Source: Hymenobacter canadensis
GTDB lineage: Bacteria > Bacteroidota > Bacteroidia > Cytophagales > Hymenobacteraceae
Reading direction: 5' to 3'
Length of the DNA stretch: 64,000 bases
NCBI RefSeq assembly: GCF_027359925.1
Contig: NZ_CP114767.1
Location: forward strand, 372,001 to 436,000
Positions 54,597 to 57,995 of the stretch are shown in pieces; within the stretch, counting starts at the first letter, position 1, and every line of letters begins with the position of its first letter. Made by a program: the position numbers and the translations under genes. Below the pieces are notes generated by a model that did no database searches, was not told the DNA's origin, and worked only from the letters and a program-made list of their open reading frames with translations.

Positions 54597-57500
54597 CTAC
54601 TGCGTGGGAAGTACCGGATTACGGTCGGAAGGCGGCGTGAGGGGCGCCGCGTCCAGCTCCCGCGGGTGTTCGTCGAGGCCGGTTTCGCGGTGCGCCGCGA
54701 AATACTGCGCCAGCGCCTTTTCGCCCACCAGCCAGAACACTACCGGTGTCACGATGATGTCGAGGAAGGTAGACGAAAGCAGACCGCCGAGGATGACCGT
54801 GGCCACCGGGTAGAGGATTTCCTTGCCCGGCGCGTCCTTGGCCAACGTGAGCGGCACCAGGGCCAACGCGGCCACCAGGGCCGTCATCAGCACCGGCACC
54901 AGCCGCTCCAGGGAGCCGCGGATAATCATCGGGATACCAAACTTCTCGCCCTCGTGCTCCACGAGGTGGATGTAGTGCGAAATCATCATGATGCCGTTGC
55001 GCGAGGCAATGCCGGTGAGCGTGATGAAGCCCACCAGCGAGGCAATGCTGAAGGTGCCGCCCGTGAGCAGCACCGCCACCACCGAGCCAATCAGGGCCAG
55101 CGGAATGTTGAGCATGATCTGGCCCACCATGTAGCTGGACTTGAAGTGCGAGAACAGCACCAGGAAAATGCCGGCCAGCGAAAACAAACTCAGCCACAGA
55201 ATTTTCTGCGACGCCGACTGCTGGCTCTCAAACTGCCCGCCGTAGGTGAGGTAGTAGCCCGGCGGCAGCTTCACCTGCTGCCCGACCCGGGCCTGAATTT
55301 CCTTGACCGTGGAGCCCAGGTCGCGCTCCGCCACGTTCAGCGAGATGGTGATGCGGCGTTGGGTGTTTTCGTGGTTGATGGTGTTCGGGCCGGGCTCGTA
55401 GCTGATGTCGGCCACCTCACTCACCGGAATCAGGGCGCCGCCGGGCGTTTCGATGCGGGTCTGGCCCAGGGCGGCGAGGTGGTTGCGCTGGGCTTCGGGC
55501 AGCTTCACAATCAGGTCGAAGCGCTTCTGGCCGTCGAGCATCTGCGACACCACGGCGCCCTGAAACAGAGTTTCCAGGTCGCGCACCACTTCGCCGCGGG
55601 CCATGCCGTAGGCGCGCAGGGCCTCGTCGCGGGGCCGGATGAGCACCTGTGGAATCTGCACCTGCTTCTCTACCTGCAGATCCACTACGCCCGGCACCGC
55701 GGCGGCGGCGGCGCGGATTTCGTTGGCGTAGCGGCGCAGCTCCAGCAAATCGTTGCCGAACACTTTGATGGCCACCTGCGCCCGCACGCCCGAAAGCAGG
55801 TGGTCGAGGCGGTGCGAAATGGGCTGGCCAATGTTCACGTTCACGCCGGTAATCAAACTGAGCTTCTGGCGCATGTCGGCCAGAATTTCGTCGCGGCTGC
55901 GCATGGTTTTGCCTTCTTTTTCGAGTTCGGCTTCAGTCTTGAAGGCCACCTCAATCTCCGAGTTGTTCACCGACTCGGCGTGCTCATCCAGCTCGGCGCG
56001 GCCGGTGCGGCGGGCGGTGTAGGCCACCTCCGGAATCTTCAGCATCTGCTGCTCGCCCAGCGTGCCCAGCTTGTTGCTCTCGGTGAGGGAGGTGCCGGCG
56101 GGGGCTGAGAAGTTGACGGTCAGGGAGCCTTCGTTGAAGGGCGGCAGAAACTCGGTGCCGAAGAAAGGCACCAGGGCCGCGGCCAGCCCGAACAGCAGCG
56201 CCACGGTGGTGAGAATGGCTTTGGGGTGCGCCAGGCCCCAGTGCAGCAGGTGCGTGTCCTTCTTCTTCAGCCAGCGCACCAGCCCGCCGTCGGTTTCGGG
56301 GTGGTCCATCTGCTTCATGCGGGGCAGCAGGTAATAGCACAGCACCGGCGTCACGGTCAGCGACACGAATAGCGAGGCCACGATGCTGGTGATGTAGGCA
56401 ATGCCCAGCGGCGCGAAAATGCGGCCTTCCATGCCTTCCAGCGCAAACAGCGGCAAAAACACCAGCACCACGATGACGGTGGCGTACACGATGGAGTTGC
56501 GCACCTCCGAACTGGCCGCGTAAATCACCTGCAGCACCGGCCGGGGCTGGGGGAGCTGGCGGTTTTCGCGCAGGCGCCGGTACACGTTTTCCACGTCCAC
56601 GATGGCGTCGTCCACCAGCTCGCCGATGGCAATGGCCAGCCCGCCCAGCGTCATGGTGTTGATGCTGATGCCCGCCACGCGGAACACCAGCGCCGTCACG
56701 ATCAGCGACAACGGAATGGCTACCAGCGAGATAAACGTGGTGCGCACGTTCAGCAGAAACGCAAACAGCACGATGACTACCAGAATAGCGCCGTCGCGCA
56801 AGGCCTCTTCCACGTTGCTGATCGACGACTCAATAAACTCCGACTGCTTGAACAGCCGCGTGTTCACCTGCACGTCCTTGGGCAGGGAAGGCCGGAGCTC
56901 CACTAAAGCCTTTTCCACGGCTTCGGTGAGGCCCACGGTGGCCGCGCCCGGCTGCTTCTCGATGCTCAGAATCACGGCGGGCCGGCCGTTCACGCTGCCG
57001 TCGCCGCGCTTGAAGCGGGCCCCGAACTCCACCCGCGCCACATCCGCCACCCGCACCGCCGACTGCGCACGGTACCCCACGATGATGTTCTCAATGTCCT
57101 GCATCGAGCGCAGCCGGCCCAGGTTGCGAATCAGCACCTCGGAGCCCTGGCGGTCGAAAAAGTTGCCGGTGGTGTTGAGGTTGGAGCTGCGCAAGGCCTC
57201 TTCCACTTGGCTCACGGTGATGCTGGTAGCATTCAGCCGGGGCATATCCAGCAGCACCTGGTACTGCAGGTTGTCGCCGCCGATGGGAATGACCTGGGCC
57301 ACGCCGGGGATGCTCAGTAGGCGCTGGCGCACGGTGTAGTTGGCCAGCGTGCGCAGGTCGGCGGCATTGGTGACCTCACCCCCCGGCCCCCTCTCCCGTG
57401 GAGAGGGGGAGCCAGCCGAATCCACTTTGGCGGACTGCTTATTCTTAATTGCTAATTGTTCATTACTAATTGAAGTCGAAAGCCCCACCAGCATAATCTG

Positions 57501-57911
57501 GCCCATCACGGAGGAAATGGGGCCCAGCACCGGCGTGATGCCCTGCGGCAACTGCTCGACGGTGGTTTGCAGCTTCTCGCTCACAATCTGGCGGGCCGTG
57601 AAGATGTCAGTGCCGTAGTCGAACTCCACGAACACCATGCCCAGGCCGATGGCCGAGTTGGATCGCACCGCCGACACGCCGGTGGCGCCGTTCAGGGCCG
57701 TTTCCACAGGTAGGGTCACGAGGGCCTCCACCTCTTCGGGGGCCATGCCAGGCGCTTCCAGAAACACCGTCACGCGGGGGCGGTCCAGGTCGGGCAGCAC
57801 GTCTACGGGCAGCTGGCGGGCCGTGTAGGTGCCGGCAATCAGCAGCCCCACGGCAAAAGCCAGCATCAGCAGGCGGTTCTGCAGGGCAAAGCGAATTATT
57901 TTATCGAGCAT
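54597..57911 (-). CDS. Heavy-metal RND efflux transporter (CusA/CzcA family)
   Basis: A 1104-residue inner-membrane proton/metal antiporter. Twelve membrane segments are inferred from the family pattern. Hallmarks are the N-terminal FALQNRLLMLAFAVGL, the pore segment LPEAQRNHLA, and the TM4 proton-relay region GELVDDAIVDVENVYR. It is slightly longer than usual because about 37 residues (147-183, ISNEQLAIKNKQ...GSPSPRERGPGG) are inserted between LVGLSTS and ADLRTLANYTVR, in a segment of the periplasmic porter domain. The insert is encoded by repeat-type DNA yet keeps the frame. Metal specificity (Cu/Ag versus Co/Zn/Cd) is uncertain. Confidence 0.95.
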   Translation of the reverse strand: MLDKIIRFALQNRLLMLAFAVGLLIAGTYTARQLPVDVLPDLDRPRVTVFLEAPGMAPEEVEALVTLPVETALNGATGVSAVRSNSAIGLGMVFVEFDYGTDIFTARQIVSEKLQTTVEQLPQGITPVLGPISSVMGQIMLVGLSTSISNEQLAIKNKQSAKVDSAGSPSPRERGPGGEVTNAADLRTLANYTVRQRLLSIPGVAQVIPIGGDNLQYQVLLDMPRLNATSITVSQVEEALRSSNLNTTGNFFDRQGSEVLIRNLGRLRSMQDIENIIVGYRAQSAVRVADVARVEFGARFKRGDGSVNGRPAVILSIEKQPGAATVGLTEAVEKALVELRPSLPKDVQVNTRLFKQSEFIESSISNVEEALRDGAILVVIVLFAFLLNVRTTFISLVAIPLSLIVTALVFRVAGISINTMTLGGLAIAIGELVDDAIVDVENVYRRLRENRQLPQPRPVLQVIYAASSEVRNSIVYATVIVVLVFLPLFALEGMEGRIFAPLGIAYITSIVASLFVSLTVTPVLCYYLLPRMKQMDHPETDGGLVRWLKKKDTHLLHWGLAHPKAILTTVALLFGLAAALVPFFGTEFLPPFNEGSLTVNFSAPAGTSLTESNKLGTLGEQQMLKIPEVAYTARRTGRAELDEHAESVNNSEIEVAFKTEAELEKEGKTMRSRDEILADMRQKLSLITGVNVNIGQPISHRLDHLLSGVRAQVAIKVFGNDLLELRRYANEIRAAAAAVPGVVDLQVEKQVQIPQVLIRPRDEALRAYGMARGEVVRDLETLFQGAVVSQMLDGQKRFDLIVKLPEAQRNHLAALGQTRIETPGGALIPVSEVADISYEPGPNTINHENTQRRITISLNVAERDLGSTVKEIQARVGQQVKLPPGYYLTYGGQFESQQSASQKILWLSLFSLAGIFLVLFSHFKSSYMVGQIMLNIPLALIGSVVAVLLTGGTFSIASLVGFITLTGIASRNGIMMISHYIHLVEHEGEKFGIPMIIRGSLERLVPVLMTALVAALALVPLTLAKDAPGKEILYPVATVILGGLLSSTFLDIIVTPVVFWLVGEKALAQYFAAHRETGLDEHPRELDAAPLTPPSDRNPVLPTQ
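57363..57475. repeat. In-frame composite repeat within the RND gene
   Basis: It contains a 34-base AT-rich AATTAGTAATGAACAATTAG-type stretch and a 32-base CCCCTCTCCCGTGGAGAGGG-type palindrome, both resembling intergenic repeats common in Bacteroidota. Local base composition is unlike the GC-rich gene on either side. It encodes about 37 extra residues and contains no stop. Confidence 0.7.
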
Positions 57912-57916
57912 GTTTT

Positions 57917-57995
57917 AAGCGGCAAGCTGTAAGCTTTAAGCGGCAAGCTTGTTCCAACCCAATAGGCTGGGCGCTTGCAGCTTAAAGCTTGCGGC
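57917..57995. repeat. AAGC-unit repeat between RND and adaptor genes
   Basis: AAGCGGCAAGCTGTAAGCTT and an inverted partner GCTTGCAGCTTAAAGCTTGC surround TTCCAACCCAATAGGCTGG. It fills the 84-base gap between adaptor and pump genes. It shares TAAGCGGCAAGCTG with the in-frame copy in the receptor gene. Confidence 0.75.

Follow-up and report, generated by a model that had tools for sequence, protein, structure and literature searches.

Here, we found that a conserved heavy-metal efflux pump of Hymenobacter canadensis carries, in one of its loops, a translated patchwork of two different kinds of repeat DNA, and that this loop is a genus-wide hotspot which, depending on the species, is empty or filled with different repeat families. 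On balance, we favour with some confidence the explanation that both kinds of repeat landed in frame in a tolerant loop that serves as a recurrent landing site, with entry through the action of a DUF559 nuclease as the presumed route and an added peptide that is most likely neutral for the pump. The window, by which we mean the whole stretch of 64,000 nucleotides that was analysed, contains the insert described here.

The pump gene (54,597–57,911, minus strand) is an unbroken open reading frame of 1104 aa with a GC content of 63.7%. It belongs to the CusA/CzcA family of heavy-metal RND pumps, as indicated by a Pfam ACR_tran match on both sides of the insert and a match to NCBIfam TIGR00914 that exceeds the cut-off of the model. 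Alignment with relatives that have a short loop, and whose residues there (e.g. GGKETN) are replaced or absorbed, delimits an insert of 36 residues (148–183; 57,363–57,470, minus strand) flanked by LVGLSTS and ADLRT. In gene orientation, the insert starts with an AT-rich heptamer repeat of 33 bp and 21% GC (57,438–57,470, minus strand; codons 148–158, ISNEQLAIKNK), continues through an 18-bp linker translated as QSAKVD (57,420–57,437, minus strand) into a complete palindromic REP unit of 46 bp and 78% GC (57,374–57,419, minus strand; translated as SAGSPSPRERGPGGE), and closes with a short tail of a few residues beside ADLRT. The REP unit has perfect inverted arms of 10 nt each (57,387–57,396 and 57,400–57,409) around a 3-nt loop. 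Measured from MLVGLS to NYTVR, the segment comprises 56 aa in this pump versus 24–27 aa (mostly 25) in the 73 genes with a short loop. The first-pass annotation had described repeat DNA of about 37 residues, an AT-rich stretch beside a palindrome, read in a continuously open frame within a GC-rich metal-pump gene; its place, its two components, the contrast of the AT-rich part with the GC-rich gene and the open frame are all borne out, and the length is corrected to 36 residues.

When the pump is aligned with E. coli CusA, similarity is interrupted between chain residues 148 and 160 of 3k07, where the insert lies; this would suit a loop of the periplasmic part. Two of the six frames are open in the AT part (one per strand) and five in the REP. 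We propose that a heptamer-period AT repeat, of the kind that stands between genes as hairpin arms, and a REP unit would have landed in frame in the loop, with the reading frame acting as a filter through which frame-keeping copies would survive. Upstream of the pump gene, the spacer to the neighbouring gene (57,912–57,995) shows, by eye, runs of AAGCNNN heptamers in inverted arrangement and looks like a neighbouring intergenic repeat of the heptamer type.

A search of the 5.09-Mb genome of the strain (4 contigs; stretches fetched and overlapping matches merged) returned 56 separate REP copies, of which a few are partial. On contig C1, a further copy begins no more than 300 bp away from 34 of the 55 copies, and the two are often oppositely oriented. 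The element thus has the general features of a REP, namely a short palindromic unit, many copies and frequent facing pairs. One locus (L246:3808–4074) contains three tandem REPs about 51 bp apart and one facing copy. Within the window, the REP core CCCCCGGCCCCCTCTCC occurs once where 0.09 occurrences would be expected. As 8 of 100 shuffled sequences contained one or more matches at 2 mismatches, the count in the window says little by itself. The AT unit was found once in the window versus 0 in the shuffles; with up to 3 mismatches allowed, it has three places in the genome, the copy in the window included. It shows by eye a seven-base period (AATTAGT AATGAAC AATTAGC AATTAAG), and related AT arrays in stretches fetched from other genomes appear, likewise by eye, as inverted pairs around a GC-richer spacer, i.e. 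as hairpins. Both parts are genomic repeats, of which the palindrome is abundant and the AT repeat rare; the concern that neither might have another copy in the genome is removed by these counts.

Is the loop filled in the same way in other species? We sought the pump in 120 Hymenobacter genomes, of which 74 gave a match at E 1e-40 or better, and read 93 listed pump places, window included, 91 of them with a readable loop. The loop was long in 18 and short in 73 of these genes; at loci from named records, 13 of 78 readable loops were long (80 loci fetched, two without a readable loop). The long loops contain ATTAAAAATGAAG arrays, GTTAACAATGAG arrays, GCTAACAGC arrays, GGAGTTGG and CAACCAAC arrays or REP; those of L126 and L127 contain no recognised repeat, and pump homologues in the protein collection show further kinds of content. 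The DUF559 domain considered below was absent from every pump loop read, be it in genus genes, named-record loci or protein homologues. Compared with a short-loop reference, insertions of at least 5 aa in 86 full-length pumps are confined to reference positions 145–148, the N-terminus and the last 31 residues. The loop would thus be a place where the pump tolerates extra residues.

The near relative Hymenobacter piscis NST-14 (L031/L111) has an insert of recognisable homology, in which the REP unit is identical and the AT part differs at several residues, so the copy in the window was probably inherited from before the split of the two. The left part of the insert is common to the window, L111 and L118, and hence separate gains must be fewer than carriers. 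The first-pass annotation had allowed that close homologues across the genus might share the same insert; this applies in part to H. piscis NST-14, whereas other species are empty or carry other repeats. Its proposal of a Bacteroidota analogue of the Rickettsia elements made from two different repeats keeps the two repeats, but the insert is no isolated case, as the site is filled time and again, with repeats that vary from species to species.

We compared the family in the loop with the repertoire of the host genome in the 18 long-loop genomes. Genomes with a REP in the loop contain 26–110 other REPs versus 0–40 (p 0.0016), and those with a NEELKIK array in the loop contain 27–54 of these arrays versus 0–45 (p 0.0027). 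No significant association with abundance was found across the same 18 genomes for the GCTAACAGC family (p 0.12) or for SNEQLAI, the AT family of the window (p 0.44). The loop family tracks host-genome abundance, then, for two of the four families tested. Two further arrays are narrowly distributed: GTTAACAATGAG occurs in 3 of 24 genomes, with 71 of its 74 places in the genome whose loop bears it, mostly in one tandem array, and GGAGTTGG occurs in 2 of 24 genomes, where the one that has it in the loop accounts for 3 of 4 places. Against a link with the repertoire, G117 and G074 have 10 AT-family places each and none in the loop, G040 (28 REPs) and G063 (40) are without a REP in the loop, and the loops of G074 (65 REPs) are short. 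A tandem array of over 60 copies of the 14-bp unit GTTAACAGTGAGCA, of the family found in the pump loop of G115, is located at G115:C217:62677–63583.

To follow gains and losses, we built a tree with the loop left out of the alignment. The 91 genes, minus one protein under 700 aa and plus 27 proteins chosen by hand from 120 listed, gave 117 rows, which were reduced to 110 upon removal of identical cores and to 108 after two far rows were dropped. With a loop segment of at least 35 aa as definition, 33 of the 108 rows are carriers. Their distribution requires 17 state changes on the maximum-likelihood tree and 15–17 over the 300 bootstrap trees scored out of 1000, in a bootstrap that had not settled. 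The nine genes with an AT-plus-REP composite require nine changes on all 300 scored trees.

These results bear on the alternative that a single ancestral insertion was inherited and exchanged between species together with the pump gene, then diverged and was repeatedly lost, the different repeats arising by gene conversion with the repeats of each genome. The order of AT part then REP, the orientation and the frame are identical in at least nine genes, which would be surprising if all nine were independent and for which shared descent plus exchange offers an alternative; the left part shared by three carriers points the same way, as does L111, which upstream of the insert comes closer to the window than any other row. 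Recombination may also have blurred the whole-gene pump trees. However, carriers are scattered among short-loop genes, unrelated families (REP, GGAGTTGG, CAACCAAC and GCTAACAGC) occupy the same spot, and the flanks of the composite carriers (n = 7 with DNA) resemble one another no more than they resemble short-loop genes, with mean identities of 0.878 among themselves versus 0.873 with short-loop genes upstream and 0.875 versus 0.874 downstream. We therefore regard a single insertion as improbable, if worth keeping in mind.

Repeated filling of one site would also be expected if the loop were a selected functional insert, whose peptide or mRNA hairpin tunes the pump or its expression, such that species refill it. 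Indeed, the RNA of the insert region (57,363–57,475) has a better fold than most of its shuffled versions (z = −2.1), with 3 of 200 doing as well. This explanation is nevertheless quite unlikely: the content is unrelated between species, the loop is short in 73 of 91 genes, and the AT part differs at several residues even between the window and its near relative L111. Least of all do we expect an assembly or annotation artefact or a pseudogene. Two of the 93 pump genes, L175 and L199, are frameshifted at the loop, which could be real or a sequencing error, but the 1104-aa frame in the window is uninterrupted and its Pfam match extends across both sides of the loop, and long loops recur in separate assemblies of named Hymenobacter strains. 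We thus retain repeated landing of repeat DNA in a tolerant loop as the preferred reading, with a peptide that is most likely of no consequence for the pump.

The pump is one of several genes affected. In H. canadensis, 13 of the 56 REP copies lie in open frame in seven Pfam-supported genes: this pump, an AcrB-type pump continuous with a TolC-type domain, a UvrD/RecB-like helicase, a PD-(D/E)XK nuclease gene, PNKP, PBP1C and IspG. The AcrB-type gene (L233:2814–7367) is one open reading frame in which ACR_tran (41–1063) is joined to OEP (1343–1514) by a translated REP pair. The RecB-like helicase gene (L234:4445–8017) holds a REP pair, and near it the PD-(D/E)XK nuclease gene (L234:9887–13,504) reads REP–DUF559–REP in frame.

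We read two of these sites in other species, with rows classed by word pattern and length. Among the best 120 of 183 homologues, the helicase site held DUF559 in 6, REP-like sequence in 35, another long insert in 9 and a short segment in 70; by eye, some of the short rows carry heptamer-hairpin peptides, and P0207, classed as REP, is a heptamer case. The PBP1C site, which falls within the Pfam transpeptidase match, was short in 39, REP-like in 67 and otherwise long in 14 of the best 120 of 4324 homologues, and P0330, P0337 and P0350 among the last look by eye like heptamer hairpins. At both sites, some of the short and other long rows carry, by eye, heptamer or REP-like peptides. Both sites vary as the pump site does, being empty, of REP type or of heptamer type, so that the occupants are interchangeable at three sites. 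The helicase site also holds REP–DUF559–REP, i.e. an in-frame DUF559 at a variable site.

Which enzyme could move the REP? In the PD-(D/E)XK nuclease gene of H. canadensis, two REPs flank the DUF559 domain. This small nuclease-like domain matched one solved structure, the endonuclease-like protein 3hrl, and a DUF559 protein has been placed in the PD-(D/E)XK superfamily together with Vsr (PMC12907096); PADLOC returned no match for the domain. DUF559 matches, a few of them weak, were found in 22 of 24 Hymenobacter genomes. Strong inverted repeats, mostly REP-like by eye, lie within 450 bp on both sides at 24 of 30 DUF559 loci (one truncated), compared with 0 of 29 for outer flanks and 2 of 300 for intervals placed at random in stretches that bear REPs. 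With flanks swapped between loci, left against right, 32% of 300 combinations reached the score, as would be expected if the DUF559 loci share one repeat type; the arms are therefore not locus-specific. Over 24 loci, nuclease distance tracks repeat-arm distance (Mantel r 0.68, reached in 0 of 5000 permutations), a correlation to which shared descent may contribute. In a phylum-wide sample, from which five truncated loci were left out, 6 of 24 DUF559 loci had inverted flanks versus 0 of 24 controls. At four loci from four genomes (L259, L261, L263 and L264), DUF559 is found in frame at the C-terminal end of a long open reading frame. A simple correlation of DUF559 count with REP count fails: G060 (13 REPs) and G085 (21) have no DUF559 match, and DUF559 is present in genomes poor in REP.

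We also considered RAYT as the enzyme. H. canadensis has four RAYT matches. Of five full-length RAYT loci in other Hymenobacter genomes (L253–L256 and L258), four have inverted flanks of another sequence and one has none; the sixth, L257, is truncated and its score uncertain. G024, in turn, contains 33 REPs and no RAYT match. RAYT is thus not our first choice for this REP.

Since the REP bounds DUF559 genes, and since one coding site holds REP–DUF559–REP in some species and bare REP pairs in others, REP units are probably cut or transferred by the nuclease, which would thereby help to mobilise them; the bare REPs would be non-autonomous derivatives of the nuclease unit. We speculate further, and more tentatively, that the REP family does without the service of a RAYT and has DUF559 as its mobilising enzyme, that REP–DUF559–REP enters fixed permissive coding sites in frame in the manner of homing elements and leaves bare REP pairs behind, and that unrelated heptamer hairpins share these landing sites. 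In this complete form, the scheme is a possibility to which we would give somewhat less than even chances.

Homing endonucleases and inteins are nuclease reading frames that lie in frame inside a conserved gene and are present or absent at one site. The in-frame DUF559 at the variable helicase site is similar to them, by layout alone, but differs in that the nuclease is bounded by REPs. A RAYT with its REPs (REPtron) shares with our loci a nuclease gene between inverted copies of a repeat; there, the enzyme is a Y1 tyrosine transposase instead of DUF559, and the RAYT loci examined in the genus have other flanking repeats.

Palindromic repeats of several families translated in frame in unrelated conserved genes are known as Rickettsia palindromic elements, RPEs (PMC10969869, PMC3733652). 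The first-pass annotation named these as a precedent, and aptly so, because the genome of H. canadensis has its REP in frame in six Pfam-supported genes besides the pump. Likened by description, the two systems agree in that a palindromic repeat is read in frame within conserved genes whose functions differ. Here, in contrast, one and the same site holds unrelated families from species to species, a heptamer repeat is involved and copies of the palindrome lie on either side of a DUF559 nuclease gene. REPs of the GTAG and CGTC superfamilies, often as dimers, have been reported in coding regions, including recBCD and UvrD-type repair genes (PMC3733652). Our REP likewise lies in coding regions, with repair genes among its targets. 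As to the CGTC tag, about half of a small sample carries it: in 13 copies fitting a strict pattern, the tetranucleotide at the REP end is CGTC in 6, CGGC in 5, CGCC in 1 and another in 1. The REPs described there have an 8–9 bp stem, a short CCA tail and a RAYT, whereas the copies found here have arms of 10 nt, a long GC-rich tail of the form CCGGGGGGTGAGG and an association with DUF559. Heptamer direct repeats such as TAACTGA are intergenic and patchily distributed in Bacteroidetes and Cyanobacteria, with some long arrays (PMC4679880); the AT repeats agree with these in period and intergenic location, and differ in being other heptamers, in forming inverted pairs between genes and in being translated within genes.

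REPs and RPEs in coding genes and heptamers in Bacteroidetes are therefore already in print, and the new features are the interchangeable occupants and the candidate nuclease. In a literature search that covers few of the subscription journals, we found no paper that deals with repeat families replacing one another at a single coding site, with DUF559 between REPs, or with REPs or intergenic repeats in Hymenobacter.

Translated palindromic repeats have been known from Rickettsia and from REP surveys, and the present sites bear on what moves and places them. Our observations suggest that repeat DNA lands again and again in certain protein loops. As three proteins each have one site that is empty or differently filled in relatives, insertion, replacement and loss can be compared directly, and a nuclease family with matching flanking repeats provides a testable enzyme. 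SPSPRERGPGGE or NEELKIKN stretches in annotated Hymenobacter proteins may be translated repeat DNA instead of conserved domains. If DUF559 indeed mobilises the REP, a set of proteins in one genus would have loops that are turned over by repeat DNA.
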